NCBI RefSeq assembly: GCF_001660705.2
Contig: NZ_LYBV02000030.1
Span: 62,001 to 126,000 of the forward strand
Direction: 5' to 3'
DNA: 64,000 nucleotides
Source: Saccharicrinis aurantiacus
Lineage (GTDB): Bacteria > Bacteroidota > Bacteroidia > Bacteroidales > Marinilabiliaceae
In this document: piece by piece, positions 3,972 through 27,086 of the stretch
Layout of the letters: every line of letters begins with the position of its first letter
Numbering within the stretch: the stretch's first letter is position 1
The notes under the pieces: model-generated
The model's input: the letters and a program-made list of their open reading frames with translations, nothing else
The model's database searches: none
What the model was told of the DNA's origin: nothing
Translations under genes and position numbers: made by a program

Positions 3972-6152
3972 TTATTTTATTATGATGGTTTCAGTAACAT
4001 AACTATCATCATTGTAACGAATAGTTACAAAGTAAATTCCGGTAGAAAATTTTTCAAGATTAACTTTATACGTATTCATTCCGGCCACGTTAGCATTATA
4101 CAATAACTCTCCCTTGCTGCTGGTTACTTTGATATAGTTAGCATCTACAATTCCATCAACAGTAAAAATTCCATTCGATGGATTTGGGAAAATAGATAAA
4201 GTTGAATTGTTTGTAACCGTTTTCATACCAGTAGAGCTCTTAGTCATTCCAAATATTTCAACATGTGACCATGCAAAAGAAGCTTTGTACGAAATATAAT
4301 AATTGCCATCTATTTTAGCAGGCATTTCATCAGCCCAAGTATTGGTAAAATCAGTTCCGTTAATAAGCAATGAATCTAAATTCCATGAACTAACATATGA
4401 AATATCCTCATCTGTAACCCAACAATAATCACCTGCACCATCTTGCTTGTAAGTTAAGCTTATCGATGTAGGATTAGTGCATCCGTTACTAAGTATTGTA
4501 AATACTGCATTAATTACTTTGTTGGTATTCATTACTACCTCAGTCGGATTTTCATTTGAACTAACATCACCTGTCCATTCTTTAAATGTATAACCAGACT
4601 CAGCCGTAGCAGTTAAACTCACAATAGTACCATCAGTAAACGTATTTCCTGCTGGTATATGGCTTACTGTACCCATGCCGCTAGTAGTATTTGTTAATGT
4701 ATAAGTAATAGCATCTGTTACAGTAATATTACTGGTTGCCGTAAAATCGCCATCATTTGTAATAGCACTTATTGTGGCATTACCAATAGATACTGCAGTA
4801 ATTTCACCCAAACTATTTACAGTAGCTACAGTTTCATTACTACTTTTCCAAGTTACATTTTTATTACTTGCATTACTCGGAGATATATTTGCAGTTATTT
4901 GTGTATTTTGGCCAACATTTAGAGTTGTACTATCAGGGTTAACACTTATGCCATCTACTGGTATAACCACGCTAGTTTGGCAATTTGGTATCTCGCTTAC
5001 TAAATAAGGGCGCAGTTTGTCCATTTTCCAATCCACAACGTTTTGCCACTGATCATCTAACAACCCACCTGTATCACCTGAATTTGGATTCCAACACCAA
5101 AATGTCCAATGATGTCCTTTTTCTCCCATGAAAGCCACAAACTTATCAAACCAAACTTCATCTTGGCCACCTTCATCCTTAATACCAAATTCACCAAAAA
5201 ATAGTGGCGAAGTATTTAAAGTATGTAAATAATTAAAGTTCTCTTCCCATATGCCGGGCATATTATCCGGAAAATCTGGGCTCGAAAACCAATCTTGCAT
5301 ATGCACTGTTGGTCCATATTCATGTGGCGAATAAACTAATTTTTCAGGATGCGTTAATTCAACAGGATAATCCCTTGCACCTTGCAAATTGCCACCCCAC
5401 CAATAACTAGTTTCTTCAAACTCCTCCGTTCCTTCAACCATAATTAGCACATCAGGGTTAACCTCTAAAATTGCATTACCACATTCTTGTGCAGCCAATC
5501 TCCAATCATTCTTAATATCACCAGTTCCCCATCTCGATCCACCACCGTATGCACCATGTGGTTCGTTATTAATATCCATTGCAATAACCGCATCATATTC
5601 TTTGTATCGCTCGGTTATAAAAATCCAATCTTCAATCCATTTTGCATGACTTACCTTCTCGGTATACCACAATTCTTCTGTCATATAGCCATCAGGTTCT
5701 CGAGAGTGATTATCTAATATCACCTTCATATTATTTTCTTGACACCATTGTATAGCAATATCCAATATTTCTAACGATTTGGTTTTGGTGGCTTCAATTT
5801 CATTCATAGGTGAAACACCCGAGTATGGGTCAGTTCCATATGCATTTATGTCACCACTAATATCCTGTGTTAATATGGCATTATTCCAAGGTATCCGGAT
5901 ACAATTAAACCCTAAATCCTTTATTTGTTGCAACATGCTTTTATGGTCACGTGCCCAAATGCCATGAAAATACCCCATCTGAGTTTCAAAGCCAAACCAA
6001 TTTACGCCACGTAAAAAAACCTCCTTACCATCAGCATCAAATAACTGATTACCCTGAGCTGTTAAATAGTTTTTTTTGCAAGTTTCTGCATTCATGCACA
6101 AACTAATTAGCAATAGGCATGCAAATATGAGCAACTGTTTTATTTTTTTCAT
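3972..6152 (-). CDS. GH5 subfamily 1 endo-beta-1,4-glucanase, T9SS-secreted
   Basis: This endoglucanase should cut internal bonds of cellulose outside the cell. Signal peptide 1-22; GH5 catalytic domain ~28-388; BIG2 Ig-like domain ~397-479; bacterial repeat (InlB B-repeat-like) ~483-552; shared uncharacterised module 558-635; T9SS type A sorting domain ~650-726, ending in TIIIK. The catalytic domain closely follows the pattern of the Acidothermus E1 enzyme (GH5_1): RGVNWFGFET near 49-57, SYWWGGNLQGA near 249-259, DFPDNMPGIW near 293-302. The acid/base is Glu197 in INNEP and the nucleophile is Glu321 in FFGEFG. It is the last gene of the minus-strand cellulase locus, 255 bases after the GH5-like gene, with a palindromic intergenic element in that gap. 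The subfamily is from memory of motif patterns, the GH5 call itself is firm. Confidence 0.92.
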   Translation of the reverse strand: MKKIKQLLIFACLLLISLCMNAETCKKNYLTAQGNQLFDADGKEVFLRGVNWFGFETQMGYFHGIWARDHKSMLQQIKDLGFNCIRIPWNNAILTQDISGDINAYGTDPYSGVSPMNEIEATKTKSLEILDIAIQWCQENNMKVILDNHSREPDGYMTEELWYTEKVSHAKWIEDWIFITERYKEYDAVIAMDINNEPHGAYGGGSRWGTGDIKNDWRLAAQECGNAILEVNPDVLIMVEGTEEFEETSYWWGGNLQGARDYPVELTHPEKLVYSPHEYGPTVHMQDWFSSPDFPDNMPGIWEENFNYLHTLNTSPLFFGEFGIKDEGGQDEVWFDKFVAFMGEKGHHWTFWCWNPNSGDTGGLLDDQWQNVVDWKMDKLRPYLVSEIPNCQTSVVIPVDGISVNPDSTTLNVGQNTQITANISPSNASNKNVTWKSSNETVATVNSLGEITAVSIGNATISAITNDGDFTATSNITVTDAITYTLTNTTSGMGTVSHIPAGNTFTDGTIVSLTATAESGYTFKEWTGDVSSNENPTEVVMNTNKVINAVFTILSNGCTNPTSISLTYKQDGAGDYCWVTDEDISYVSSWNLDSLLINGTDFTNTWADEMPAKIDGNYYISYKASFAWSHVEIFGMTKSSTGMKTVTNNSTLSIFPNPSNGIFTVDGIVDANYIKVTSSKGELLYNANVAGMNTYKVNLEKFSTGIYFVTIRYNDDSYVTETIIIK

Positions 6153-6407: not shown

Positions 6408-8270
6408 TTATTTAATAACTATCTTTTTTGTATTAACGGAACCATCCACATATTGTAGTTTTACAAAGTATGATCCGGTTGAATATGCAGATACAGGAAT
6501 CTCAATAGAATTACAATCGGCTATTTCCTTAAATGCTACTTTTGTACCAGTTGCATTTAATATAGTATAAGAACTTACATTGATTGTATTTTTAATATTA
6601 ACAACATCGCTACTTGGGTTAGGATATATTATAATATCTGTAGAATTGCTTATTGCATCATGCGAAATTGATTTTAGATCGCTACTAATAACTTCAATAT
6701 GCGACCAATCATATGATCCTTTATAATAGATATTGTATAAACCATCAATTTTATCAGGAAAGCTATTGGTATACGTGTTGGTAATATCAACACCATTAAT
6801 CTCAATTATATCTGTATTCCATGAGTTGATGTAGCTTAAATCAGCAGAGGTTTGCCAGCAGAATTCTCCTTCACCATCAACTTTATGAGGTAATACAATG
6901 CTACTAGGATTGGCACATGCAGGTTCTCTTTTTATTACCGTAACCACACAGCTGTCGATAAAGCTACCATCATTTGTTGTAACTGTAATAATAGTTTCAC
7001 CTTCTAAAATTGCAGTGATTGTTCCACTACTTATAGTAGCAACAGTTGGTACTGATGATTCCCAGGTAACTCTTTTATCAGAAGCGTTACTAGGTATTAG
7101 GCTAGCAGTGAGTTTAATTGATTTGCTCTCTTCAATAATTACAGAATCATCAGAAAGTGTTACTCCAGTAGCAGGCACTAATACAGAACCTATCGGATAG
7201 ATTAAGTTAGGATGATTGTTGTAAAAATTATTAGTTGCTTCGGCTATATTCTCAAAGGTACCATGTCCGTCATTCTGTGGTGTTTTCCAAGCGCATACGC
7301 CATCAAAACCATTTGTATAGGCACTTTCGTACATTTCAGAAACTGTTTGACAAACATATTTATCGCAAACATCATTTCCTTCTGATTCTCCTACAATAAC
7401 AGGTCTGTCATCAACGTCGTATTCGGCGGTGGTCATTGTAAAAGGTGAACTCATCCATTCTGATTGCCAAGGGTACCAGTGGTATTGATAGAAATCAAGA
7501 AATGCATTAGGGTTATTGATAGCTGCAGATAGCGCTTCATCAGAAAACATATTACCTTCATAATCACCCCAATCATCATAAATAGGCGAATTCCATTTTG
7601 GTGCAGCAGAACCAGTTGTTACAAACTTTGTTGAGTTTTCATGAATTGCAGCAGCTAGCATAGCATGCATTTTTTGAACGTCGTTGAACTCTTGCGGACC
7701 ATGTTCTGAATTTTCAAACATCCACTCAGGCTCATTACAAATTTCCCAAGCCAATAAGTAGGTTCTGTTATCATAGCGCTCAAGCATTGGTATTAAAACA
7801 TTATCGATATAACTTTGAATATTTGCTTCGCTTTGAATCCACTTTCTCCATTCAGCAGTTGTTGCATATCCATCTTTAGTTATATCAAACGAGAAAAGTG
7901 CTGGCATAACATAAACTTCATTTTCTTCGGATACATTCATTAAATGATCCATATGATCCCAAAAAATATCATTTGTGCCGTCAACAAAGCCTGTAGCATC
8001 AATGTTAGGGCTAAATTCTCCCGACATGTGTACCCAAACTCTTGCTAGGTTAATATTGTTTTGTTTGTATTTTTCAAATTCGTTAGACCACCATTCAGGC
8101 TCAAAGTCATGACGGCCAAAATCGCCAAATAAATGCCAAGGGGTGTTAATTCCATTGAACCATATTTCACTATTATCTACAGTAAATTTATTACCACTAA
8201 TCTTTACATTTTGTGCAACCATTGTACCTATAGTACTCAATATTGCGAGTATTAATATTATTTTTTTCAT
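6408..8270 (-). CDS. GH5-like clan GH-A hydrolase (mannanase type), T9SS-secreted
   Basis: A secreted glycoside hydrolase of the GH5/clan A TIM-barrel type, most like beta-mannanases. Signal peptide 1-20; catalytic domain ~21-355; BIG2 ~365-446; shared uncharacterised module 451-529; T9SS sorting domain ~543-620, ending KKIVIK. The likely acid/base is Glu180 in AWEICNEPEW and the nucleophile Glu295 in VIVGESEG; the LARVWVHMSG strand (75-84) fits the GH5 arrangement. Unlike the GH5_1, GH48 and GH9 proteins it lacks the InlB-like repeat between BIG2 and the shared module. The mannan preference is inference from the general look of the domain; cellulase or xyloglucanase activity is possible. In the locus it would remove hemicellulose that coats cellulose. 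Confidence 0.82.
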   Translation of the reverse strand: MKKIILILAILSTIGTMVAQNVKISGNKFTVDNSEIWFNGINTPWHLFGDFGRHDFEPEWWSNEFEKYKQNNINLARVWVHMSGEFSPNIDATGFVDGTNDIFWDHMDHLMNVSEENEVYVMPALFSFDITKDGYATTAEWRKWIQSEANIQSYIDNVLIPMLERYDNRTYLLAWEICNEPEWMFENSEHGPQEFNDVQKMHAMLAAAIHENSTKFVTTGSAAPKWNSPIYDDWGDYEGNMFSDEALSAAINNPNAFLDFYQYHWYPWQSEWMSSPFTMTTAEYDVDDRPVIVGESEGNDVCDKYVCQTVSEMYESAYTNGFDGVCAWKTPQNDGHGTFENIAEATNNFYNNHPNLIYPIGSVLVPATGVTLSDDSVIIEESKSIKLTASLIPSNASDKRVTWESSVPTVATISSGTITAILEGETIITVTTNDGSFIDSCVVTVIKREPACANPSSIVLPHKVDGEGEFCWQTSADLSYINSWNTDIIEINGVDITNTYTNSFPDKIDGLYNIYYKGSYDWSHIEVISSDLKSISHDAISNSTDIIIYPNPSSDVVNIKNTINVSSYTILNATGTKVAFKEIADCNSIEIPVSAYSTGSYFVKLQYVDGSVNTKKIVIK

Positions 8271-8379: not shown

Positions 8380-8414
8380 ATAAAAAAACCGATGCAGAAT
8401 ATTCTGCATCGGTT
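8380..8414 (-). terminator. Rho-independent terminator of the tandem GH48 gene
   Basis: A perfect 28-base palindrome (8387-8414) with no loop bases ends, on the minus strand, in a run of seven T. It starts 12 bases after the stop at 8426. This is the strongest terminator of the cellulase locus. Confidence 0.9.
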
Positions 8415-8425
8415 AACCAAGAAAA

Positions 8426-11400
8426 TTATTTAATTATTAGTTTTTTAGAATCTGTACTACCATCCGTTCTTGTTACGGTTACAAAGTAAAGTCCTTTAGC
8501 AAAACCATTAGTGTTAACTAACACTGATTTTTCACCATTTAGCTCTTGACTATAAACTGTACGAGTCGAATTTCCTGTAATTACAATACGTATAGCTTTA
8601 TCAATTCCACGAATAGTTACTTTTTCTCTCGCCGGATTAGGATAAATACTTAATGGTTCACTTAAACTTGATTTTTCTGATATGTCAGTAGCGCTTTTAT
8701 TAGCACTGAATATCTCAGCATGACCCCAATCAACAGATGATTTATACTCAATACAATACTTGCCGTCTATTTTATCAGGCATAGTATTTGACCATCTATT
8801 GGTAAAATCTGTTCCGTTAATAATAAGCTCATCTAAATTCCATGAGTTAACATATCCTATTTCGTCAGTTGTAGTCCATAAGTAAGTACCTGCGCCATCT
8901 TGTTTATGTGTTAAAGTAATTGGCGTTGCATTAGGACAAGTACTAGATACTTCTGTAAATACTGCTGTTACGTTTTTATCAGCATCCATTACAATATCAA
9001 CTGGGTTTGTGGAGCCTGTAATATCTCCTAACCATTCTGTAAATACAAAACCTTCTGCTGCAGTTGCAGTTAATGTAACAATTGTACCTTCAGTATAAGT
9101 TCCGCCTATAGGCAATAACGCTATGCTACCCGAACCTGAAACTGCAGTAGTTAATGTGTAAGTAGGAATTGTTGAAACCGTAATTATTGCAGAAGAAGTA
9201 AATCCACCTTCTTCAGTAGTTGCTGTAATTGTAGCTTCACCAAGTGCGATTGCTGTAACTTTACCATCACTATCAACTGTAGCAATAAATTCGTCACTTG
9301 ACGACCATGTTACTGTTTTGTTGGTGGCATTATATGGCAATACTTTCGCAGTTAATTCTACAGTTTGGTCAATAGATAATGTAACAGAGTCAGGACTAAC
9401 TTCAACACCAGTTACATCAGCAGGAGTATTAACACCAAAGAATCTACCAAACTCTGCATTTGCAAGTGCGATATCTGCTTGTCCCCAATAACGGTGATAA
9501 GCTGTTTTGTAATTTTCACCTGCATTATAAGCAGCCTCTAATTTTGCAAATTCAGGATCATTTTTATAATCAGAACGAATATCGATAAACTTAACACCGG
9601 ATTTGATTTCATCTCCGTTTGCCATTGTACCGCTATAGTCAGAAGGAACATATACTTCTTGCTCAAAGAAACGTTTATAATCTTCGCGTTCTTCAATTAT
9701 TGTAATACCTAAACCATCAGCTTCATAATAGTTATCCCACATTCTATCAAGAATTTCTTTTGCTAAATCACGAGCTTCAGTATCAAGAGTTTCATATTTT
9801 TCTGTTGCTGCAGCATAGTATGTAATTGCTTTAGCAAGACAAGCAGCAATACCTGGATCTTGTGAGTAATCACTAACGTTTACGTGTAAGTTAGTGTTAG
9901 CTTGAGGGTTTGAAGGATCCCAAGTATTAGGTTGTCCAGTCCATTCAAGAGTAGCAGGAATCTCATAGCTACCATCATCCGTAAGTTTAACTTCACTTTT
10001 AACCCAAGGAATCCAATTTTCAAGAAGATTCTTAGCCATTTCATTGTTAGAGATATAATACAACTCTGCAATTCTTTCCATTGACCAAGCTTGCATACCA
10101 AACCATTGGTTACTGCCTGGATCATGATATACAGGGTGCTCAGTATAAGCCATGTCATAAAAAGTTGCAGTACCTGCTGGGTAGGTATCATAGCTACCAT
10201 TCCAAGAGTTTGTTGCACCTCCAGCAATTGCACCTTCGGCAGACTGTAACCATGTATAAAATTCTAACTGGCGTTGCATACTTTTACCCCAATCTGTAGC
10301 ACCATTGGCTGTAATTGGTTTAAGTTCTTCTGTTTGACTTAATGCATATGCAGCAACAGGGTTTTGGTAACCAAAGTGATTATGGCTACAACCAATACGC
10401 CATGACCAGCTTGATGTTTCAATAGGTCCACCCCATGCAAAATACCACGACATTAAATAATGAGCACTATTGTAACCAGTAGCACCTTCGCCATCTTTAT
10501 CTTGAACTCCCATTGGTTTAAAGTACTTATCAAACATAGAAAGGCGAACAAAGTCACCCATTTTACTAGCTTTAGCAGTAGGTACCGTAGTTTGAGGATC
10601 TAAGCCTTGCTCTTTAGCAAATTGAACAGCCCAATACATTGCTTGTACTGCACGCGCATCAGCATCAGGAGCATTTGTATATCTCCATTGCTTAGTAGGG
10701 TTTGGATCCTCAATAAATAATGGAAGGAATCCTCCATTTTCACCAGCTCCCCAAGTAAAGTCTTCCCATGATGGATGTGGAACAGTTTCCCATACCGACT
10801 CTTGTTCACCACGTTGGAATGTGTTAATATAACTAGGTGTGCTTACACCATCACCAAAATTACCATAACCATAAAAGTTATCACAATCAAATAGCCAATG
10901 CATAGCATATACATTAGAACCATAGGCACTATTTAATTCATTAGAAATAGGGTCTTGTCCAACAGGAACAGAACTTTCTATAGCTGATGGGTAGTAATCT
11001 GGTAATGGGTGCTCTCCTGCATAATCAGCTGGGTCAGAAGGGTCGTAATTACTAATATTTGGCTGCATTTCGGTAGTTGGAATAGCTTTTTCTTCCATTT
11101 TAGTCCAAGCATTATTAAGTGAAGACCAATCTCCTGTAATTCCACCATACATCGTTTCCATCCAGATCCAGTAAGAATAAGCTTCAGAGGTAGTCTCATG
11201 ACCATGATCCGGAGCTTCTGCCATTAGTGTTTCTACTGAATGGTATGGTACACCATCTTTACTGAAATACCCATTATCAGGATCATTCATTTTTTCTCGT
11301 AATTCAAGGAAACGGTTAGTGTACTCATTGTTCCCGCCCATTAGAGATTCCTTAACGGTTACAATGCAAGTATCAGTTAAGCCTCCACCTGCAGTTGTTA

Positions 11401-13579
11401 CAGTTATAGTAGCAGTACCAACAGAAACACCTGTTACAATTCCATCAGCATCTACTGTTGCAATAGCTTCATCATCAGAACTCCATATTACCTCTTTATC
11501 AGTTGCATTTACTGGAGTAATTACAGCAGATAGTTGTGAAGTAGTTCCAACTGTGATAGTAAGAGTTTTGGGTTGTATTGTTATACCTGTAACATACACA
11601 GTATCTTGTTCACCAAAAAACCTTCCATACTCTGCGTTAGCAAGAGCGATATCTGCTTGTCCCCAATAACGGTGGTAAGCAGTTTTGTAACTTTCACCAG
11701 CATTATATGCAGCTTCAAGTTTTGCAAATTCAGGATCATTTTTATAATCAGAACGAATATCGATAAATTTAACACCGGATTTAATTTCATCTCCGTTTGC
11801 CATTGTACCACTATAATCAGAAGGAACATATACTTCTTGTTCAAAGAAACGTTTGTAATCTTTGCGTTCTTCTTCAACCGTTATACCTAGGCCATCAGCT
11901 TCGTAATAGTTATCCCACATTCTATCAAGGATTTCTTTTGCTAAATCGCGAGCTTCAGTATCAAGGGAATCATATTTTTCGGTTGCTGCAGCATAATACG
12001 TAATGGCTTTTGCAAGACAAGCAGCAATACCAGGATCTTGAGAGTAATCACTAACAGTTACGTGTAGGTTAGTGTTAGCTTGAGGATTTGAAGGATCCCA
12101 TGTATTAGGTTGTCCAGTCCATTCAAGAGTAGCAGGAATTTCATAGCTACCATCATCAGTAAGTTTAACTTCACTTTTAACCCAAGGAATCCATTTTTCA
12201 AGAAGACTCTTGGCCATTTCGTTGTTAGAAATATAATACAGCTCGGCAATTCTTTCCATTGACCAAGCTTGCATACCAAACCATTGGTTACTACCTGGAT
12301 CGTGATAAACAGGGTGTTCTTGATATTCCATTCCATAAAACGTAGATACGCCAGCTGGGTATTCATCATATCTTCCATTATGAGAGTTTGATACTCCACC
12401 AGCAATAGCCCCTTCAGCTGATTGTAACCAAGTATATAATTCTAACTGACGTTGCATACTCTTTTCCCAATCAGAAGCTCCATTTGCTGTTATTGGTTTA
12501 AGTTCTTCTGTTTGACTTAAAGCATAAGCAGCAACTGGGTTTTGGTATCCAAAATGTGAGTGGCTACAACCAATCCTCCAAGCCCAATTATTTGATTCAA
12601 GAGGACCACCCCATGAGAAGTACCAAGACATTAGATAATGTGCACTTTCGTAACCTGAGGCACCAGGACCATGAAGATCTTCCGAGCCAATAGGCTTAAA
12701 ATATTTATCAAACATTGCTAAACGAACAAAATCTCCCATTTTACTTGCTTTCGCAGTAGGAATAGTTGATTTAGGATCTAAACCTTGCTCTTTAGCAAAT
12801 TGAACAGCCCAATACATTGCTTGTACTGCACGTGCATCTGCATCAGGAGCATTTGTATATCTCCATTGTTTGGCAGGATTACCTTCCTCAATATACAATG
12901 GTAAGAATCCTCCGTTTTCGACAGCACCCCAAGTAAAGTCTTCCCATGATGGATGTGGAACAGTTTCCCATACCGACTCTTGTTGACCACGTTGGAATGT
13001 GTTAATATAACTAGGAGTGCTAACACCATCACCTAAATTACCGTAACCATAAAAGTTATCACAATCAAATAACCAGTGCATGGCATATATGTCAGAACCA
13101 TAAGCGCTTGTTAATTCGTCTGATATCGGATCTTTTCCTACAGGAACATCTGTCCATAAAGAAGATGGATATTGATCCGGAGTTTCCCATTCAGCTGCGA
13201 AAGTAGCAGGAGCTCCAGAGTCATAATCGCCAGAAGTAGGTTGCATCGCAGATGTTGGAATAGCCGTTTCTTCCATTTTTTGCCATGCGTTATTTAGGTA
13301 GGTCCAATCACCAGTAATACCACCATACATAGTTTCCATCCAAATCCAATAAGAATAGGCTTCACTAGTAGTTTCATGGCCATGATCAGGCGCCTCAGCC
13401 ATTAGTGTTTCAACAGAATGATAGGGTACCCCATCTTTGCTAAAGTATCCGTTGTTCGGATCATTCATTTTTTCTCGTAAATCGAGAAAGCGTTGTGTGT
13501 ACTCATTTTGAGCATTAGTACTACTTGTGGCAAATAAAATTGCCATAAGAAATACTGAAAAACAGAATTTTTGTTTCAT
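8426..13579 (-). CDS. Tandem double GH48 cellobiohydrolase, T9SS-secreted (1717 aa)
   Basis: GH48 enzymes are inverting, processive cellobiohydrolases that run from the reducing chain end, the key exocellulases of clostridia. Order: signal peptide 1-23; GH48 copy 1 ~25-656; BIG2 ~662-743; GH48 copy 2 ~751-1382; BIG2 ~1388-1469; bacterial repeat ~1473-1542; shared module 1548-1625; T9SS tail ~1640-1717 (KKLIIK). Both copies are full length and keep the active-site stretch [20 protein letters not shown]: Glu62/Glu73 in copy 1, Glu788/Glu799 in copy 2. By comparison with CelF, Glu73/799 is the proton donor. Both keep [11 protein letters not shown] (from 244 and 970). The copies align without net gap at an offset of 726 residues, about 87% identical by my manual count. 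The gene follows the GH9 gene after 66 bases that contain only a hairpin. I know of no other protein with two GH48 domains; from memory GH48 is rare in Bacteroidota. Confidence 0.95.
9434..11329 (-). repeat. GH48 coding repeat, copy 2
   Basis: DNA of the second GH48 domain (residues ~751-1382). It matches 11612-13507 at a constant distance of 2178 bases, in frame and with no net insertion or deletion. Many third-position differences show that the copies are genuinely separate and not a read-assembly error. Confidence 0.92.
11612..13507 (-). repeat. GH48 coding repeat, copy 1
   Basis: DNA of the first GH48 domain (residues ~25-656), the direct-repeat partner of 9434-11329. The near-identical stretches are the first ~65 and the last ~190 residues of the domain. 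Confidence 0.92.
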
Positions 13580-13645: not shown

Positions 13646-16576
13646 TTATCGTTTTATGATGATATAGTCCTTCAGTTGAACATCATTATTTTGGAATTTG
13701 ATAATATATGAGCCAGCTTTATATTGTGATAAATCTAAGCGATGTGTTGGTTTTGCATTCACATTTTCTTCAAACAATTTATTCCCACTAACATCAAATA
13801 TGAGAATTGATGTAGCATCAGGTAAGTTTGAGATTGTAACTGCATCAGAAGTTGGATTAGGGAAGATGGTGATATCTGTATTCAAATCTATTTTCTGAGT
13901 TTTAGTAGCTCCTTTAAGAGTACCTAATTTAACTTCAAGATGTGACCATGGAAGAGAAGAAACATAGTGAATTATATATTCTCCATTTATCTTGTCGGGC
14001 ATATTATTGGCCCATTTATTAGTATAATCAGTTCCATTAATTTCAACTTTATCCATGTTCCAAGAGTTAACAAAGTTAATTTCGTCACTTGTAACCCAAC
14101 AGAATTCACCAACATCATTTTGCTCAAATGGAAGGGTTATTGGAATAGGAGATGAACATCCGGTACTTTGTGGCGTAAATTCGGCTGTAATACTTTTGTT
14201 AGTATTCATTGTTACAGTAATGTCAATATCATTACTAATAACATCACCACTCCAACCGCTAAACATATAGCCACTAGCTGCAACTGCAGATAAACTTACT
14301 ATTGTTCCTTCATCGTATATTCCTCCTATTGGAGATATTACAATACTTCCTTGACCAAGGGTGTCTGTGGTTAGTGTATATTGAGGTAATGGAATATCCG
14401 TAACAGTAATTACACTGCTGGCTGTAAATCCACCATCTTCAGTTATAGAGCTTACGGTTGCAATACCCTCAGCAATAGCGGTTACTACTCCATCTGTATT
14501 TACAGTTGCGATAGTAGCATCACTAGTATACCATGTAACATTCTTGTTACTTGCATTACTTGGAGATACTGTTGCAGTTAAGGCGCCTGTTAATCCTTTA
14601 TTTATTGTTATGGTTTCAGGACTTATGCTTATTCCCGTAACATCAATTACTTCTATCGGACCAGGTTCGTTACCAAATACTAGAACACCATCTGCATACA
14701 TTGGTATATTTGTAACTTCGGTTAAATCTGCACCAACACCAACGGCTGACCAATCATTTGAAGGGTCCCAAGCTGTATCAGGGGCATCATATGGTAAACG
14801 GATTCTTACCTGTGATTCTCGTCTGGTTTCACTCTGACCACCAGGGTAAATAATCTCATCGCTATTAAATTCGACTTCAACATAATATATCTCATTTTCT
14901 GCATCAGCAGGTAGAAGAGATGAGATTGTTGCGTTATTAGTGTTTGCTGAAATGATATAGTCAGATGCAGAATAGCCCGCACTAACCCCTTCACTAATAT
15001 CAACGAATAATCTAAATTTAAAGCTTGGTACACGTGCAGGCCAAGCAGTTCTGTTGTGTACCCATACAGCATATTCTGAATGAGTTGTTCCGGTAGAATT
15101 CATTTTGGCTTCTACTAAAAATTCGCCATTAGGCGTTTCCTCTTGAGGAAAATCGGACAAGGGTTCTCCACCAAAGTCGGAATATAAACGAGCGACAACT
15201 CCAGTAAAAAGAGAATTGTAATCGCAAGCTACTTCATTCCAATAGTAGTCGTGCCTGCTATCAACCCAATCAAAATCATCAGCAGTTTTATGACCGCCAA
15301 CAAGTGCACCATAAAGCGTGTGACGAGTTTCTTCAGGAATACTTTCATCTCTATTCCAAGGGCCATGTGCAGTTCTATGGTGAGGGTATAACGGGAATTT
15401 ATTACCATAACCAATTACATAACTTGTTTCTTGAGGATTATCACCTAACAAGTAATCAGTTATTTCTTTGGCTCGATCTCTATATTGTTGTTTCTTAGAG
15501 GCATTAGTCATGTTATCGCTTTGTTCTAACATTAAGAAAGCGGTGTTGGCAGCATACCTAAAAGAACCCCAAGTATCTAGAATAGGAAAGCCCGATGGGG
15601 TAAAATCAGGACCTTTACCATTTGAATTTGGTGCAAACCACTGATCTAAGAAGCGTTCTGCATCATCGTTATATTCTTGTTCCCCAGTTAAGGATGCCAT
15701 TAATATGTAGCAACCATATTTTTTATCATCCCAAGCTAATGTCCAACCATAACTTTTAACATCTTCACGCTCTTCATTTGATAATAAACTATATTCTTCT
15801 TTCGCTTTTTCGAGATAACTATTATCACCAGTTGCTTTATACAACCATATAGCACCCCAACATAGTTCATCTTGATAACCACTCCAAGATTTATAAAAAC
15901 TACCAACAGGAATTACATCTGAATATTTACCTCTATAATTATCCGCAAAAGTATACAGCTCTTTTGCGTGGCTTAATAATGTAGCACTATAAGTAGGATT
16001 AGAGTCATTAAATATCAAACTTGCAGCTGCTAGAGCAGCTGCTGTTTCACCAGCTAAATCAGTACCAGGATTAGCAGCGTCAATTTTGTATGATGAGCGT
16101 TTTGAGCTAATATGAATAACTTCGGCCGGAACCCAATAGTTATGATCTTCGTCGCCATCACCAACCTGAGCATAGAATTCGTTAGGGGAGGTGTGACATT
16201 TTAAAAGATAATCAGTAGTGTGCTTAACATTTTCTAAAAAAATAGCTTCTTGATTGCTTGCAACATACGCCGCTTTGTTTTCGAGGTATCCCCAGCATAA
16301 TGTTGTAACAGAATATGCCATGGGGAAGTTAAACTTAACGTGGTCTCCAGCATCAAACCAACCACCAGTTAAATCAATACTAGCGTCGTTTCCATCTTCC
16401 ATAGCTGCATTAGCTCTCCAGCCAACTCGGTTATTTGGGCTCAGGCTACCTGCTTGTTGTGCCTCGTAGAAGAACATAGATTTTTGGAGAATTTCTCCGT
16501 ATTTATGCTGTCCGTTTACGGAAGTACCTGCGAAGAGGCAGCACATAATAATCAAAAGAATAATTGAACTTTTCAT
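13646..16576 (-). CDS. GH9-CBM3c processive endoglucanase, T9SS-secreted
   Basis: A theme-B type GH9 cellulase, in which a CBM3c next to the catalytic domain gives processive action. Signal peptide 1-22; GH9 ~24-470; CBM3c ~484-635; BIG2 ~644-726; bacterial repeat ~733-801; shared module 807-884; T9SS tail ~895-976 (YIIIKR). Catalytic Asp75 and Asp78 lie in GGWFDAGDHVKF and the acid Glu448 in YYWNEVACDYN; the His signature PHHRTAHG is at 398-405. The CBM3 part carries SEYAVWVHNRTAWPAR and later DTAWDPSNDWS. Such GH9-CBM3c enzymes are best known from clostridia (Cel9G, Cel9I), so with GH48 next to it transfer from Firmicutes is plausible; the tail modules are Bacteroidota. The gene is 66 bases upstream of the GH48 gene and probably co-transcribed. 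Confidence 0.94.
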   Translation of the reverse strand: MKSSIILLIIMCCLFAGTSVNGQHKYGEILQKSMFFYEAQQAGSLSPNNRVGWRANAAMEDGNDASIDLTGGWFDAGDHVKFNFPMAYSVTTLCWGYLENKAAYVASNQEAIFLENVKHTTDYLLKCHTSPNEFYAQVGDGDEDHNYWVPAEVIHISSKRSSYKIDAANPGTDLAGETAAALAAASLIFNDSNPTYSATLLSHAKELYTFADNYRGKYSDVIPVGSFYKSWSGYQDELCWGAIWLYKATGDNSYLEKAKEEYSLLSNEEREDVKSYGWTLAWDDKKYGCYILMASLTGEQEYNDDAERFLDQWFAPNSNGKGPDFTPSGFPILDTWGSFRYAANTAFLMLEQSDNMTNASKKQQYRDRAKEITDYLLGDNPQETSYVIGYGNKFPLYPHHRTAHGPWNRDESIPEETRHTLYGALVGGHKTADDFDWVDSRHDYYWNEVACDYNSLFTGVVARLYSDFGGEPLSDFPQEETPNGEFLVEAKMNSTGTTHSEYAVWVHNRTAWPARVPSFKFRLFVDISEGVSAGYSASDYIISANTNNATISSLLPADAENEIYYVEVEFNSDEIIYPGGQSETRRESQVRIRLPYDAPDTAWDPSNDWSAVGVGADLTEVTNIPMYADGVLVFGNEPGPIEVIDVTGISISPETITINKGLTGALTATVSPSNASNKNVTWYTSDATIATVNTDGVVTAIAEGIATVSSITEDGGFTASSVITVTDIPLPQYTLTTDTLGQGSIVISPIGGIYDEGTIVSLSAVAASGYMFSGWSGDVISNDIDITVTMNTNKSITAEFTPQSTGCSSPIPITLPFEQNDVGEFCWVTSDEINFVNSWNMDKVEINGTDYTNKWANNMPDKINGEYIIHYVSSLPWSHLEVKLGTLKGATKTQKIDLNTDITIFPNPTSDAVTISNLPDATSILIFDVSGNKLFEENVNAKPTHRLDLSQYKAGSYIIKFQNNDVQLKDYIIIKR

Positions 16577-16693: not shown

Positions 16694-16732
16694 AAATAGT
16701 ACCCTCCTCTAAGTAAAGAAGAGGAGAGTACA
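16694..16732 (-). terminator. Hairpin terminator of the GH5_2-CBM6 gene
   Basis: The arms at 16699-16710 and 16720-16731 form a 12-bp stem with one mismatch (GTACCCTCCTCT with AGAGGAGAGTAC). On the minus strand TATTTTAATT follows. It starts 16 bases after the stop at 16747. Confidence 0.7.
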
Positions 16733-16746
16733 TCCCAAAAATGAAA

Positions 16747-19665
16747 CTACTTGATATATAATGATTTTGTTAATTTACTGCCATCACTCAATGTTACCAC
16801 AACTATATAGGCTCCAGGGCTTAAGTGATTAATATTAAGTTTTAGTGATTTTACATCATGTGACTTTTGTTTAAGAACAGTTTGCCCTAGCATATTTATA
16901 AACTCGATATGCTTAGAGTTATTTAGGCCATCAATAGTAAGCTCTGACCTAACAGGGTTGGGATACATATTAAACACAGGAGTATTATTGGATAAATATG
17001 CTGATTTTAGGCATGGATCAGAAGCAGAATTGCTGAAGTATAGTGTATAACTATTTGATTTTTCAACTAAAACGAAGTTGTCGCCATCCAATGTAGCCCA
17101 ATATGTACCATCAAGCCCTGTGAATCCGCTGCCTGCAATTGTAATTGATGGACTGACAGAATTAAAGTTCTGAGTAGATCCTGATAAATTGTTATACCAA
17201 TCAGGAGATCCATCTGTTGTGCTTATTGATAGTTGCCATAGTCCATTATTTGCTAAATCCCAGTTGATGGTTAAATTAGATACATTGCTTAAATCAGGAC
17301 CATTTCCAATAACATGTATGTTATTATAAGCATTATTTATTGATGGTAACGGTGTTGTTAATGGTGCGTCAAAATCACAACCTGGTGTAGTTGATTCGGA
17401 AGTAAATGTTGCTGTTACCGTTTTATTAGCATCCATAATTAAAACAGTACTAGCATTTGTACTACTAATGTCACCACTCCATGAGGTAAATATATAACCA
17501 TCAGCAGGTGTTGCCACTAAACTTACTTCGGTACCAGCTTCATAACTAGGACTAGTTGGTATTGATTCTACAGTTCCCATACCTACTGTATTTACATTAA
17601 GTGTATAAGTATTAGGAGTGCTTTCAGTAACTGTTACCTGACAAGTACTTTTTATAAGTGGGTCAGATGAGGTTGCAGTTATTGTTGCAGAGCCAATAGC
17701 AAGGGCATTTACTATACCTGCATCAGATACTGTTACAACATTTGTATTACTAGAACTCCAAGTCACCGATTTATTACTAGCATTACTAGGTAATACTGAT
17801 GCTGACAGAGTGCTAGTTTGATCAGTACTTAAACTTAATGTGCTTGGTGTAACCTCAATACTTGTAACCGGAATTATGGTTCCACCACCTTCGAAGGAAA
17901 ACTTGCTAAAGTTAAAATCTCCGGCATCAATATACATTCTCATGACTTGGATACCGGCCTCAAGAGCTATGCCGGTAACAGTTAATTCTTGGTAATTACC
18001 CCAGCTGCCAGAGCTTGGCACATCAATAAGCCCGGTTTTATCAACTTCATCAAATTCGAGATGAAATTTGCCACCGCCAGGCTCTGATCCGAAACGAAGT
18101 ACCATTGAATAGGTATCAGTACTTGCAACGTTCACAGTATATTCTAACCATTCTCCTGTTATAACATACCCTATGTTCCCAACTCCGTCGCCACCTTCGG
18201 TATCAACACCTTCGTCAGGTCTGATACCACCAACTCCTTTATTAGTGGCATCATCGTCATGATAAGCAATTCCTTCACCGCCATCATCGTAATTTACTGC
18301 AGATATAGCACCAGGTATGCTAGCTGGAGTATTTTTATCAGGGTAAGGGTCTTGAATAATTTGGGTAACAATATTGGTTGTTACTTTTAGCGAACTATTT
18401 GTTGCGTTTGCATCATCGGTAACAACCGAATGAATTGTATAGGTATTTGCTGTACTTGGCGACCAAGTGATAGAGTAGGGAGCTGTAGTATCTTCTCCAA
18501 CTTTTACATCGTTGGCATAAAATTCAACTTTAGAAACAGAGCCGTCTGTATCACTTGCTGTTGCAGATATATTTATATTGTCACCCACTTCGTAATAACT
18601 ATTATTGTCAGGTTTTGTAATGCTAGTTACTGGTGGTATATTGCCACCAGAATTCGCCCAAGAATCAGCTGGTGATAGTATCTTACCTTTTATATATTCC
18701 CCTGAGGTACTTGTATTGTTCCAGTCAGAACCACATGACCCCGGTTTTAACGCCGCTGAAATTTCATCCTTTGCAGAATAACTCCAATTACACCAGCTTA
18801 TCTTATTGTCGGCCATAAAGTTCATCCAAAGGTCAGATTCATCCAAGTATGGACCTCCGTCACCGCTAGCTTGGCTTGTCCCAAATTCGGTTACAAATAA
18901 AGCAATTCCTTTGTTCATGGCAGTGGTAGCTTTATCACGTAGCCAGGAAAGGTGTGTTCCTGAGTAAAAATGTAAAGCATACATTATATTATCTCCTATT
19001 ATAGGTGAGTCGGCTGCTGTATCTACATCTTGAGACCAATTTGGTGTACCTACAATTATTATGGTGTTAGGGTCATTGGCACGTATAATTGGTATTATTA
19101 CATCTGCGTATTCTTTAACGCGTGGCCATTCAACACCATTCGGTTCGTTACATATTTCGTAAATTACATGCTCTTTGCCAGCATGTTTTTTCGACATGTA
19201 ATCCCAGAATACCTTAGCATCTTCAATATTTGCATTCGGATCTCCAGGAGTAAGTACGTGCCAATCAATAAGGCAATATACACCAAACTGTTCGCATAGG
19301 TCTACCATATCATCAATCCAACCGCGCCAATATTCAGGAGCAGTAACATAGCCATTTTCTTCTATATACATAGCTAGCCTCATAATATCAATACCCCATT
19401 CATTGGTTAGTGCATTCATACTATCAAAGTTGTAGCATTCTCCAAACCATTGTGGTCCGTGCGAACTCATCCCTCGAAGTTGAATAGGTGTTCCTTGTTG
19501 GTTCACCATTGATGAACCAGAAACACTTAGTTTTCCATTTGCACCTACTGGTGATTGTGCTGTTAACGCTGCAGAACTAATAAGGGCTAGTATTAAGAAA
19601 ATAGAAATTCGTATCGATAAGCTTAGTACATGTTTTTTTAAGAAACTCGAGTAGATTTTTTTCAT
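16747..19665 (-). CDS. GH5 (subfamily 2-like) endoglucanase with CBM6, T9SS-secreted
   Basis: A secreted endo-beta-1,4-glucanase. Signal peptide up to ~36; GH5 domain ~37-330 with the GH5_2 signature RGMSSHGPQWFGE (64-76), acid/base Glu174 in EICNEPNG and nucleophile Glu260 in FVTEFGTS. Then an Ig-like domain ~343-432 (EFYANDVKVGEDTTAPYS), CBM6 ~440-592 (GEWLEYTVNV), BIG2 ~598-679, bacterial repeat ~685-755, an unknown module ~762-886 and the T9SS tail ~893-972 (SLYIK). The unknown module differs from that of the other four enzymes: it has INWDLANNGLWQLS and later a TGLDGTYWATLDGDNFVLVE strand pair. It is the first enzyme gene after the regulator, with its own candidate promoter and three repeats of ATGTCGTAG upstream. 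The subfamily is a recollection of motifs; the GH5 call is firm. Confidence 0.92.
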   Translation of the reverse strand: MKKIYSSFLKKHVLSLSIRISIFLILALISSAALTAQSPVGANGKLSVSGSSMVNQQGTPIQLRGMSSHGPQWFGECYNFDSMNALTNEWGIDIMRLAMYIEENGYVTAPEYWRGWIDDMVDLCEQFGVYCLIDWHVLTPGDPNANIEDAKVFWDYMSKKHAGKEHVIYEICNEPNGVEWPRVKEYADVIIPIIRANDPNTIIIVGTPNWSQDVDTAADSPIIGDNIMYALHFYSGTHLSWLRDKATTAMNKGIALFVTEFGTSQASGDGGPYLDESDLWMNFMADNKISWCNWSYSAKDEISAALKPGSCGSDWNNTSTSGEYIKGKILSPADSWANSGGNIPPVTSITKPDNNSYYEVGDNINISATASDTDGSVSKVEFYANDVKVGEDTTAPYSITWSPSTANTYTIHSVVTDDANATNSSLKVTTNIVTQIIQDPYPDKNTPASIPGAISAVNYDDGGEGIAYHDDDATNKGVGGIRPDEGVDTEGGDGVGNIGYVITGEWLEYTVNVASTDTYSMVLRFGSEPGGGKFHLEFDEVDKTGLIDVPSSGSWGNYQELTVTGIALEAGIQVMRMYIDAGDFNFSKFSFEGGGTIIPVTSIEVTPSTLSLSTDQTSTLSASVLPSNASNKSVTWSSSNTNVVTVSDAGIVNALAIGSATITATSSDPLIKSTCQVTVTESTPNTYTLNVNTVGMGTVESIPTSPSYEAGTEVSLVATPADGYIFTSWSGDISSTNASTVLIMDANKTVTATFTSESTTPGCDFDAPLTTPLPSINNAYNNIHVIGNGPDLSNVSNLTINWDLANNGLWQLSISTTDGSPDWYNNLSGSTQNFNSVSPSITIAGSGFTGLDGTYWATLDGDNFVLVEKSNSYTLYFSNSASDPCLKSAYLSNNTPVFNMYPNPVRSELTIDGLNNSKHIEFINMLGQTVLKQKSHDVKSLKLNINHLSPGAYIVVVTLSDGSKLTKSLYIK

Positions 19666-19822: not shown

Positions 19823-22819
19823 CTATATGTCAGATATATATCGTCCTATGTTTATTTCGGAGTTAAGTTCAAGTTTTTTTCTTAATCGAGATCGGGATTT
19901 TTCAACTCCTCTTTGAGAAATATTTAATAAGGATGCGATTTCTTTTGTTGACAAATCTAGTTTTAAATAAATGCATAGCTTTAAGTATGTTTGGGAGAGG
20001 TCGGGATACTTTTGTTTTAAACGTTTGATAAAATCTTTGTGAACATTATTAAAATGCTCTTCAAAGCGATTCCAATCTTCTTCTACTTTAAATTCATTAT
20101 TTATTTCACTAATGAGTGATTTAAAATCTTTTTTTAAGACAGGGTCATTTGTTTCCTTCGAGAAGCTAATAATTTTCTTTTTTACATAATTCATCTTCTC
20201 ATTTTTATGAGTAAGAAGTGTTGTTGTAGATATTAGTTGTGCATTTTTATAATTTAGTTCGTCAGCTCTAAATTGCTCTTTTGCAGTTTCTATTCTAGCA
20301 TGTAAATTTCTGCGTTCTTTTTCCGATTCCTCAATTTCGATATTAAATTGTCTTTTAATGGTATCGCGTTGTTGTTCAATTGTTTTAATGCGTGAACGCA
20401 TCACAAATATGCCAACCGTAGCAATGGTTAATATATATAATAGCTTAAACCACCAAGTTTCATAAAATGGAGGAAGGATAATTAAGGTAAGTTCTTTAAT
20501 GTTGCTGTTAAGTCCTAAATTAGATACTCTAACCTGAAAGGTGTACGAGCCTGCTTTTAAATTGGTATAGGTAACCGATTTGTTTTGTGCATTGCTTACC
20601 CACGAATCTGAAAATCCTAGAAGGCGATATTCATATTTAATTTTGTCGCTATATGCATATGAAAGGGCAGAATAACTTATAGTAATAACATTTTCTGCTT
20701 TTAATAACTTAATATTTTTTGTGTAATTAATAGTTTGATCCAAGATCACTCGGTTATCAAACCTTTCATTAACCGCTATTGATTTATTGAAAATTTTAAA
20801 GTCAGTAAGTATTATTGGTATATTATATTGATAACTTTTAATCTCTGAAGGTTTAAAAAAGCTTAATCCAGAAATTGAACCAAAATACAAATAGCCATTT
20901 TGCGCTTTGAATGAACTCCTATTAATAAAGGTATTAGAAACTAAGCCATCAGTTTTGTTGTAATTGGTAAAAGATTCGGATTTACTATTAAATAAAGAAA
21001 TACCGTTATTTGTACTTAACCATAAGTTATTGTTATTTGTTGCAATTATATCGCTAATAATATTATTAGGTAAGCCATCTGTAGTTGTATATGTGGTAAA
21101 TGTGTCGGTAGACCTGTCATATTTATTTAGTCCGGAGCTAGTGCCAATCCATAATTCTTTACTTTTGTCTTCAGTTATTGCGAAGATTACATTTCCGGAT
21201 ATTGTTTTTTTATTGTTTGTATCGTATAAATATTGCCTAATGGTATTGTTTACACGGTCGTAAACATTCAAGCCATAGGTTGTACCTATCCATATAAAAC
21301 CTAGTTTGTCTTCGTAAATTACTCTTATCCAATCTAAGCTAAGCGTCGATTTTGGTTTATCAAGGTTGTGTTTAAGTTGTGATACTTGAGTTCGATCTGT
21401 ATTAATTATACTGATCCCTCCTCCATTGGTTCCAATCCAAATATTACCTAATCGGTCCTCAGTTATGCATCGAATATCTTTATTCTCAATTTTTAAATTT
21501 GGATAAACCTGTTCTAAAGGTTTAATATTATTTGTAAGTGGATTATATATATAAATACCCTCTAAGTATGAGCCAATCCAAATATTATTAGAGTTATCTC
21601 TGAATAAACATAATATTTTGTTTGGGCAATATCCGGTTAGTAATTGGTTCAGATTTTTATTTAGGTGATTATAAATTATTCCATTTTTTATAATATTAAT
21701 ACTTCCACCATCAGTTCCAACCCATATGTTGTTATTATTATCGTCGCAAATAGCACTGACTAAAGAATAACTTAATGAGTTGTTACTAAGCGGTGTTTTA
21801 TATATATTATTGAATGCATTTTTTTTGCGATGGAGACTGATACCTCCATGAAAGTGGCCCAACCATAAGTTTGTTTCTGAATCAATAAAAATTTTACGTA
21901 CAACATTATTACTTATGGTACTTGAGTAGCTACCTGAATTTATATATACTTCCTGATGTTTGGTCTTTGGATAATATTTAATCAAACCTTCACCATCTGT
22001 GCCTAGAAGTAAGTAGTCTTGGTCTTTAATAATATCAAACAGTTGTAAATTATTAGTGGAATTTCTGGTAAGAATTTGAATTTTATTGATATCAAGGCTG
22101 TTTGAGTTTATTTCTATTAGTCCACGATCGTAGGTTGCAATTAATAAGTTTTCAGAATCAGATTTTATAATCTTTCTTATCTCAGATTGCGTAAATACAG
22201 ATCTTAAATATCCTTCAGTATAAACAAAAAGCCCTTTGTCTAAAGTCCCAATCCAGACTCTATCCTCGTTATCAATATGAATGGCAGAAATTCGTAATCC
22301 AATTTTACTTAAATGTTTATTAGGCAAAAAGTGAGATTGTTTTTTTGTAATCATATTAAAACTTCTAAGTCCCCCTCCATCAGTTCCAATTAGCAAGATG
22401 CTGTCATTTAGCTGTTTAATTTCAATAACATTTACTCTGTCTTGATGAGGTAGATTGGGTAAAAAGTAATGTTGAAAACTATCAGTAATTGGATCATAAA
22501 GCTCTAGCGAAAACTTAGTGCCGATCCATAGCTTGTCATTATTATCCATAAATAATTTAAGAACCTGATTATTACTTATTGAATTATGATTGTTTTTATC
22601 GTGCTTAAATTTTTTAAATCTATAGTTGTCATAAAAGGCGGCACCATCGTCTGTAGCAATCCATATTTGTCCATTTTTATCTTGTAATAGATCATTTATT
22701 GTACTGTGAGGGATGCCATCTTCTATGGTAAAGTGATCAAAATCAATACTTGTTTCCTGTGCACATATATTCGCTTGGAATAAGAGAATAATGTACATGA
22801 TAATACTTATATATTTCAT
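19823..22819 (-). CDS. Membrane-anchored propeller/Y_Y_Y regulator with C-terminal HTH
   Basis: Likely the sensor of the cellulase locus. Signal peptide ~1-20; then a large periplasmic sensor built of two-component-regulator propeller repeats (NGQIWIATDDG, DRVWIGTLDKG, NIWVGTDGGS, GNIWIGTNGGG and more, ~25-690); a Y_Y_Y domain ~710-783; one membrane helix ~790-808; coiled coil ~810-870; C-terminal LuxR-type HTH ~945-985 (LSTKEIASLLNISQRGVEKSRSRLRKKL). There is no histidine kinase, receiver or AraC domain, unlike the usual hybrid two-component systems of Bacteroides PULs, so the signal seems to pass straight from propeller to HTH. It lies 157 bases upstream of the five cellulase genes on the same strand. 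Control of these genes is inferred from position. Propeller, Y_Y_Y and HTH calls are firm. Confidence 0.88.
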   Translation of the reverse strand: MKYISIIMYIILLFQANICAQETSIDFDHFTIEDGIPHSTINDLLQDKNGQIWIATDDGAAFYDNYRFKKFKHDKNNHNSISNNQVLKLFMDNNDKLWIGTKFSLELYDPITDSFQHYFLPNLPHQDRVNVIEIKQLNDSILLIGTDGGGLRSFNMITKKQSHFLPNKHLSKIGLRISAIHIDNEDRVWIGTLDKGLFVYTEGYLRSVFTQSEIRKIIKSDSENLLIATYDRGLIEINSNSLDINKIQILTRNSTNNLQLFDIIKDQDYLLLGTDGEGLIKYYPKTKHQEVYINSGSYSSTISNNVVRKIFIDSETNLWLGHFHGGISLHRKKNAFNNIYKTPLSNNSLSYSLVSAICDDNNNNIWVGTDGGSINIIKNGIIYNHLNKNLNQLLTGYCPNKILCLFRDNSNNIWIGSYLEGIYIYNPLTNNIKPLEQVYPNLKIENKDIRCITEDRLGNIWIGTNGGGISIINTDRTQVSQLKHNLDKPKSTLSLDWIRVIYEDKLGFIWIGTTYGLNVYDRVNNTIRQYLYDTNNKKTISGNVIFAITEDKSKELWIGTSSGLNKYDRSTDTFTTYTTTDGLPNNIISDIIATNNNNLWLSTNNGISLFNSKSESFTNYNKTDGLVSNTFINRSSFKAQNGYLYFGSISGLSFFKPSEIKSYQYNIPIILTDFKIFNKSIAVNERFDNRVILDQTINYTKNIKLLKAENVITISYSALSYAYSDKIKYEYRLLGFSDSWVSNAQNKSVTYTNLKAGSYTFQVRVSNLGLNSNIKELTLIILPPFYETWWFKLLYILTIATVGIFVMRSRIKTIEQQRDTIKRQFNIEIEESEKERRNLHARIETAKEQFRADELNYKNAQLISTTTLLTHKNEKMNYVKKKIISFSKETNDPVLKKDFKSLISEINNEFKVEEDWNRFEEHFNNVHKDFIKRLKQKYPDLSQTYLKLCIYLKLDLSTKEIASLLNISQRGVEKSRSRLRKKLELNSEINIGRYISDI

Positions 22820-23227: not shown

Positions 23228-24136
23228 ATGTTTAGTAATATTGCTCTTGATGTAGCCATTGGGCTATTTTTTATTTATGCTTTGTATAGTTTATTAGCAA
23301 CAACAATTACCGAGTTAATTGCATCCATTTTTAATGAGCGAGGAAAATATCTTCGTAAAGGTATTCAGCGAATGCTCGATTCGGACACTGAAGAAACCAA
23401 TACAAAAGAGAATTTTAGTGAGGAATTCTTTAAATTACCCCAAATAAAATATCTAGGTAGAAAGTTAAAAAGCGGAAAAGTTAGATACCCATCCTATATT
23501 AAACCGGTAACATTTGCAAAAGGATTTTTGAATACCTTGGGATATATAAAATCAGAAGCATCGAGTCTTAGTGAATTAAAAGCAAAACTTAATTCGGATA
23601 ATGAAACGCATCAAATGATAATTCATTTAATTGATGAGGCAGAAGGTAGTGTAAGTAAATTTCAAAACTTGCTTGAAGAATGGTTTAATGAAACAATGGA
23701 CAGAGCGGCAGGTTGGTATAAACGAAGAATTCAAACCATAACTTTTTTTGTAGGGCTAATAATTGCCTTAGGACTAAATTTGAATACCATAGAAATTAGT
23801 AAGAAACTAGGTACTGACCCTCAAATGAGATTGGCTATGGTGGAAGCAGCTTCTGAATATACCAAAAATTCTCAAGAGAAACTAAATGTTGAGCTATCTA
23901 AGAAAGTACATGATCTATTTGAAGAATCTCAAGAGGTAACTTCAATAATGGAAATTAAATATCCATCAGTTGCCAGTGATGCGACATGGGAATCATGGTT
24001 TAGTTATTTGTTTGGATGTTTAATTACTGCTATTGCATTATCGTTAGGAGCACCATTTTGGTTCGATTTATTGAATAGATTAATTAAATTGAGAGGATCA
24101 GGATCTCAAGAAAGAACAGATACTCCAACTAAATAA
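23228..24136 (+). CDS. Unknown inner-membrane protein, first gene of a two-gene unit
   Basis: I recognise only a widespread type of uncharacterised membrane protein, typified by the motif LGAPFWFDLLNRLIKLRGSG near the C-terminus. Membrane helices are expected at ~5-30, ~171-188 and ~262-282. Residues ~30-165 form a charged cytoplasmic domain with several helices (FNERGKYLRKGIQRML, IIHLIDEAEGSVSKFQNLLEEW), and ~190-255 form a second soluble segment. It has no signal peptide and no known catalytic motif. A 754-residue protein of unknown function starts 25 bases after its stop, so the pair is very likely one operon. It is divergent from the cellulase regulator, and nothing links it to cellulose. 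Confidence 0.7.
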   Translation: MFSNIALDVAIGLFFIYALYSLLATTITELIASIFNERGKYLRKGIQRMLDSDTEETNTKENFSEEFFKLPQIKYLGRKLKSGKVRYPSYIKPVTFAKGFLNTLGYIKSEASSLSELKAKLNSDNETHQMIIHLIDEAEGSVSKFQNLLEEWFNETMDRAAGWYKRRIQTITFFVGLIIALGLNLNTIEISKKLGTDPQMRLAMVEAASEYTKNSQEKLNVELSKKVHDLFEESQEVTSIMEIKYPSVASDATWESWFSYLFGCLITAIALSLGAPFWFDLLNRLIKLRGSGSQERTDTPTK

Positions 24137-24161
24137 GTTTACTAATTATATTTTAAATAGT

Positions 24162-26426: not shown

Positions 26427-26434
26427 AAAATTGG

Positions 26435-26460
26435 GGAGAACATGTTTATGTTCTCCTTAT
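26435..26460. terminator. Hairpin between convergent genes
   Basis: A perfect 9-bp stem GGAGAACAT (26435-26443 with 26448-26456), 4-base loop, lies between the stops of the 754-residue gene and the VOC gene. Both strands have only weak T tracts. Confidence 0.6.
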
Positions 26461-26463
26461 GTT

Positions 26464-26892: not shown

Positions 26893-27086
26893 AGTATTTT
26901 ATTTTTATCGATTCTAAATAAAGGTAAGGCACTTTTATTATAATCTCAATAGGAGAGATAATTTACAGTTTTTGAAGATATCTTCTATGTCTTTATGGAT
27001 TACTCAAAAGTCTTCTTGGTCTATAATTGGAGCTCAGTATATATGACTTTTATGAGATACAATAAACACTTATAAAAATTAAAGTT

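Follow-up and report, generated by a model that had tools for sequence, protein, structure and literature searches.

A probable product of GH48-Big_2 unit duplication: a rare protein with two complete GH48 domains in Saccharicrinis

Results

A gene of Saccharicrinis aurantiacus encodes a protein in which two complete domains of glycoside hydrolase family 48 (GH48) stand in tandem, and the existence of this GH48-GH48 protein is confirmed by the analyses described here. We consider it likely that the protein is a T9SS-exported double cellobiohydrolase tethered to cellulose by a CBM64 module, that it evolved by duplication of a unit within the gene followed by gene conversion between the copies, and that the doubling brings a benefit of dose and avidity; the activity, the substrate and the advantage of two copies are read from the sequence.

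Domain architecture and export

The window, that is, the whole stretch of 64,000 nucleotides that was analyzed (contig NZ_LYBV02000030.1, positions 62,001 to 126,000), contains the double-GH48 gene as an open reading frame coding for 1717 amino acids (Table 1). The earlier note on this DNA located the gene correctly at 8426-13579; that the gene is on the minus strand is added here. The GH48 profile PF02011 was matched twice, from position 1 to 619 each time (982 and 970.8 bits in the genome search; 1938.6 bits in total, in 2 stretches), and these full-length matches assign both domains to GH48 and reproduce the limits proposed previously, residues 25-656 and 751-1382. In the comparison with PDB sequences, the two halves matched solved GH48 cellobiohydrolases with E-values down to 5e-272. 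The NCBIfam equivalog model of the CbhB exoglucanase (NF041611) was likewise matched in two stretches, with 1687.4 bits, which is below the curated cut-off of 1950. Among the modules reported in the earlier note, the two GH48 domains, the BIG2 domain between them (Pfam Big_2) and the T9SS tail were all recovered, but the second Big_2, the Flg_new_2 and the CBM64 modules had been overlooked. AlphaFold models of domain A with the linker, and of domain B with the linkers on both sides, were built from a shallow alignment and reached a mean pLDDT of about 71.

The GH48 domains A and B are 86.8% identical at the protein level and 83.6% at the DNA level, and the longest exact stretch that they share is 58 bp, so that short reads would not confuse the halves and a collapse or duplication during assembly is unlikely. 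Although the S. aurantiacus genome is a draft (5.88 Mb in 69 contigs, with GH48 at this locus only), the probability that an assembly error produced the double domain is practically negligible and this explanation was rejected, given that the congener G002, with a genome of 4 contigs, encodes a 1719-aa protein with the identical domain order inside a 5.93-Mb contig.

The C-terminal domain scores above the cut-offs of both PF18962 and TIGR04183, which identifies it as a T9SS type A sorting domain, and SprA_N was detected in the S. aurantiacus genome with 593.9 bits. Export via T9SS, as claimed previously, is thus likely on the strength of the sorting tail and SprA; jointly with the CBM64 module, these features point to an exported, cellulose-bound enzyme that would reside at the cell surface or be released.

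Table 1 Features of the double-GH48 gene and its neighborhood in the window
Feature	Positions	Strand	Basis
Double-GH48 gene: signal region, GH48-A, Big_2, GH48-B, Big_2, Flg_new_2, CBM64, T9SS type A tail	8426..13579	-	ORF, Pfam/NCBIfam
GH48 domain A, residues 25-656; acid E73, proposed base D246	11612..13507	-	Pfam PF02011, residue mapping
Linker between the GH48 domains, bearing Big_2, residues 657-750	11330..11611	-	Pfam, boundary analysis
GH48 domain B, residues 751-1382; acid E799, proposed base D972	9434..11329	-	Pfam PF02011, residue mapping
Second Big_2, residues 1388-1463	9191..9418	-	Pfam
Flg_new_2 (InlB B-repeat-like), residues 1474-1544	8948..9160	-	Pfam
CBM64 cellulose-binding module, residues 1552-1623	8711..8926	-	Pfam; PDB sequence matches 5e9p, 5lu3
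T9SS type A C-terminal sorting domain, residues 1645-1716	8432..8647	-	Pfam PF18962, TIGR04183; SprA in genome
GH5 cellulase-Big_2-Flg_new_2-CBM64-T9SS	3972..6152	-	Pfam
Mannanase-like catalytic domain with Big_2-CBM64-T9SS tail, downstream of the double-GH48 gene	6408..8270	-	PDB beta-1,4-mannanases 2e-31; Pfam
Terminator-like hairpin, 12-bp stem and T run, directly 3' of the double-GH48 gene	8387..8414	-	Consensus scan only
GH9-CBM3-Big_2-Flg_new_2-CBM64-T9SS cellulase, upstream	13646..16576	-	Pfam; syntenic in G002
GH5-Big_7-CBM35-Big_2-Flg_new_2-T9SS	16747..19665	-	Pfam
Probable regulator of the cluster: Reg_prop propeller-Y_Y_Y-LuxR-type HTH	19823..22819	-	Pfam; syntenic in G002, Geofilum

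Conservation of the catalytic residues

Both halves retain the catalytic Glu of the TTSEA motif, at positions 73 and 799, exactly where the proton donors had been placed before, and the Asp of the NAPDADARA motif, at positions 246 and 972; the 11-residue stretch that the earlier note described as common to both halves is present around these Asp residues. The substrate tunnel was assessed using the list of 36 residues in Table 2 of PMC5707792, which were mapped by motif and compared with five solved structures. All 36 tunnel residues of domain A, and 34 of the 36 in domain B, fall within the residue types found in these structures; the exceptions in domain B are T106, replaced by D, and L121, replaced by I, two positions that are not constant across a set of 74 reference GH48s. 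Each half therefore has the catalytic pair and all or nearly all of the tunnel residues characteristic of GH48.

In domain A, the TNSW motif reads TNSH and the same loop contains several further unusual residues; the tryptophan is kept in 73 of the 74 reference GH48s. Inactivation of domain A through the loss of this tryptophan was considered and dropped because the position is outside the 36 listed tunnel residues and is variable in Bacteroidota, with L in both halves of the G002 protein and V, L, Y or W in other members of the phylum. The W to H replacement may tune the activity or preference of the domain but need not stop catalysis. With the active-site residues kept, both halves look catalytically competent, as had been anticipated, and most likely they work as exo-cellobiohydrolases in the usual GH48 manner, inverting and processive and acting from the reducing end.

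The cellulase cluster

GH9 is a natural partner of GH48, and a GH9 gene is located directly upstream of the double-GH48 gene, with a gap of 66 bp. Terminator-like hairpins were identified on the minus strand behind the double-GH48 gene and, at 16702-16725, behind the upstream GH5 gene; judging from these positions, the GH9 and double-GH48 genes may belong to one transcript. The downstream gene at 6408-8270 (minus strand) lacks a Pfam catalytic family, and the similarity of its N-terminal region to solved beta-1,4-mannanases suggests that the product is probably a divergent mannanase. Four of the five CBM64 modules of the genome are encoded in the segment 3972-16576 (minus strand), each followed by a T9SS tail, and the fifth is on contig C32. 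No histidine kinase domain was found in the regulator (19823-22819, minus strand), which accompanies the cluster also in G002 and in Geofilum. Three open reading frames (302, 754 and 287 aa) at 23228-27950 on the plus strand, for which no Pfam or NCBIfam match was obtained, separate the cellulase cluster from a SusC/SusD pair.

The order of six genes of the cluster (GH5, mannanase-like, double GH48, GH9, GH5 and regulator) is kept in G002, with 55-71% identity. In Geofilum rhodophaeum and Labilibaculum filiforme, a gene with a single GH48 domain adjoins relatives of the GH9 and mannanase-like genes, and the Geofilum locus additionally includes GH5 and the regulator.

Distribution of tandem GH48 domains

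Profile counts agree with the earlier proposal that GH48 is rare in Bacteroidota: with S. aurantiacus included, hits above the GH48 cut-off came from 3 of the 395 genomes in the phylum sample and 2 of the 295 in the class sample, and S. aurantiacus itself was the only one among 393 genomes sampled from the order. In the family, 5 of the 71 genomes encode GH48, namely, the two with the tandem and three with a single domain; in the genus, GH48 was found in 2 of 9 genomes, both with the tandem. No tandem GH48 was detected in 59 genomes of the family to which Labilibaculum belongs, in 396 genomes of Actinomycetota (10 with GH48) or in 340 genomes of Chloroflexota (21 with GH48). Genome contigs were also searched and yielded 80 GH48 loci, which belong to Bacteroidota, Verrucomicrobiota, Actinomycetota, Pseudomonadota and Chloroflexota, each with a single GH48 per open reading frame (in one of these, L009, a partial domain at the contig end) and no further tandem; a whole-genome check of 30 genomes from this set found no second tandem either. 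Across the genomes sampled from Bacteroidota, Actinomycetota and Chloroflexota and the 80 contig loci, tandem GH48 is very rare, being present in two species of one genus; within this scope, the suspicion that double-GH48 proteins are uncommon is thereby borne out.

Origin and homogenization of the two halves

The enzymes of G. rhodophaeum and L. filiforme have the architecture GH48-Big_2-CBM64-T9SS tail, with one GH48. The presence of this single-domain form beside matching neighbors suggests that the tandem probably arose by duplication of the GH48-Big_2 unit inside the cellulase cluster. Under this scenario, the unit of an enzyme of the Geofilum type would have been doubled in place, in an ancestor shared by a few species of a single genus within Marinilabiliaceae, the family of Geofilum.

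In the GH48 tree, domain A groups with domain B inside each species (support 100/98 and 100/100), and 242 alignment sites are split by species, compared with 5 split by copy position (A/A vs B/B) and 1 crossed. Both this grouping and the linker tree, in which the likelihoods of a shared duplication and of two duplications differ by an lnL of just 0.9, are compatible with each of the two species having undergone a duplication of its own, with no gene conversion involved. We nevertheless regard this alternative as unlikely. In G002, the GH48 copies are 98.4% identical in protein and 97.6% in DNA, yet the adjoining Big_2 linkers are only 52% identical in protein, a combination that could not result if the unit had simply been duplicated recently; the DNA identity falls from 99.6% over the last 258 nt of GH48 to 67% over the next 258 nt, in the linker. 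In S. aurantiacus, A and B differ over codons 1-120 about as much as the two species do (third-position identity of 50%, compared with 52-54% between species), whereas in codons 121-632 the identity reaches 72%, against 54% between species (p=1e-8). Furthermore, it would be unparsimonious for one locus to undergo this change on two occasions. The sharp drop at the end of GH48 in G002 and the regional pattern of third positions in S. aurantiacus are best read as the outcome of an old, ancestral duplication followed by segmental gene conversion, the latter being the putative cause of the similarity within species.

Additional observations concern the extent of the homogenization and the constraint on the copies. 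The synonymous distance between A and B of G002 is 0.10, compared with 1.3-1.8 between species, and a permutation test for long identical runs gave a weak signal (p=0.03 for S. aurantiacus and p=0.09 for G002), less clear than that of the regional comparison of third positions. A precedent for homogenized GH48 modules is found in C. bescii, where the three GH48 modules encoded by three genes are identical (PMC6892212). The dN/dS values for A vs B are about 0.11 in S. aurantiacus and about 0.07 in G002. Gene conversion and purifying selection together would keep the halves alike within each species, which makes it most likely that both are active.

Possible function of the doubling

Under the model that we favor, a single export event and a single CBM64 would place two processive tunnels side by side on crystalline cellulose, where the double enzyme would work alongside the neighboring GH9 and GH5 enzymes, the benefit being that each export event delivers a larger dose of GH48 and more avidity. 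The key exo-cellulase in many cellulose-degrading bacteria belongs to GH48, and the low activity of each molecule is the weakness of this enzyme. A dose benefit fits the report that GH48 alone converts insoluble cellulose poorly and is improved by GH9 (PMC5707792). The near-perfect homogenization in G002 argues for equal, redundant activities, that is, for dose or avidity, over a special division of labor. The proposal of the earlier note that two exo-acting sites on one chain could raise local processivity or grip two chain ends received no direct support.

A specialization of the halves of the S. aurantiacus enzyme, each attacking other cellulose faces, chains of other lengths or mixed substrates, would make it bifunctional within one family. 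In favor of this possibility, the protein sequences of A and B diverge by 13%, and the differences cluster at codons 85-147 and about 374-394; among them are the W to H change of the TNSW motif, T/D at position 106 and S/A at tunnel position 298. However, the catalytic and nearly all tunnel residues are common to both halves, neither half departs from the family consensus much more often than the other, and the halves of the sister species are 98.4% identical, which makes specialization rather unlikely. Quite improbable, in our estimate, is a more elaborate version, in which the Big_2 linker would fix the spacing and direction of the tunnels such that two neighboring chain ends are worked at once; such a two-legged, processive exo-enzyme would beat two separate GH48s in speed or dwell time, and conversion would be favored inasmuch as the halves must match. 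Finally, the double form occurs in two species only and the single-domain relatives manage with one copy, as would be expected of a neutral tandem expansion, with the second domain adding little, harmless and repeatedly overwritten by conversion; that each copy has remained uninterrupted, full-length and subject to purifying selection (dN/dS of 0.07-0.11) over a between-species synonymous distance greater than 1 renders this explanation very doubtful.

A natural enzyme with a doubled exo-domain, present in two species and unequally homogenized, lends itself readily to testing whether there is an advantage in joining identical processive sites. In Bacteroidota, a phylum where GH48 is rare, the gene also provides an example of a T9SS-tailed GH48 system of the non-cellulosomal kind.

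Comparison with known GH48 systems

Fusions of GH48 with other catalytic domains are already known, which limits the novelty of the protein described here; it is a genuine, rare variant with an interesting evolutionary history. The earlier note named the GH9-GH48 fusion CelA as the exception among GH48 enzymes; that fusion is indeed known, but its status as the sole exception had to be dropped because C. bescii, besides CelA, has GH10-GH48 and GH74-GH48 enzymes (PMC6892212) and further fusions surfaced in our searches. One of these, encoded at L096:8521-14541 (minus strand) in genome G158, from another family of Bacteroidota, is a T9SS-tailed protein of 2007 aa with the modules GH9-CBM3-PKDx4-GH48, and a like-sized open reading frame is present in G382; the G158 fusion resembles CelA but differs in the export route and the spacers. 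The other, encoded at L007:7304-14353 (plus strand) in a Verrucomicrobia MAG, comprises 2350 aa with GH5, Big_7, CBM35/CBM6-like, six Big_2, GH48, CBM2 and Cel124_C (GH124) modules and thus combines three cellulase families in one chain.

In the CANDy survey of 2024, six GH48 architectures "appear to contain two GH48 catalytic domains" (PMC11238990), a claim that likewise posits two such domains per protein. In that survey, "catalytic domain" is defined as GH48, and Table 1 describes CelA, a protein that combines GH9 with GH48, by the layout catalytic domain, CBMs and catalytic domain (PMC11238990); from this row and this definition, it appears that GH9 was probably counted as GH48, so that at least part of the doubling claim probably does not refer to true GH48-GH48 proteins. 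Beyond the CANDy count, we found in the open literature no experimental or explicit account of a true GH48-GH48 protein.

The closest counterparts are the enzymes of G. rhodophaeum and L. filiforme, which share with the Saccharicrinis protein the kinds and order of the modules, related neighbors and GH48 domains that are 71-73% identical, but have one GH48 instead of two and lack Flg_new_2. CelA (GH9-CBM3c-CBM3b-CBM3b-GH48) and the GH10-GH48 and GH74-GH48 enzymes of Caldicellulosiruptor are similarly large, secreted, multimodular cellulases with two catalytic domains per chain; in these fusions, GH48 is joined to a partner from a different family across CBM3 spacers, whereas here GH48 is joined to GH48 with only Big_2 in between and a T9SS tail at the end. 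With CelS and Cel48F (PDB 1l1y and 1f9o), the protein has in common the family, the catalytic Glu and Asp and the tunnel residues; unlike it, these enzymes of cellulosomal clostridia have a single catalytic domain, without CBM64 and without a T9SS tail.
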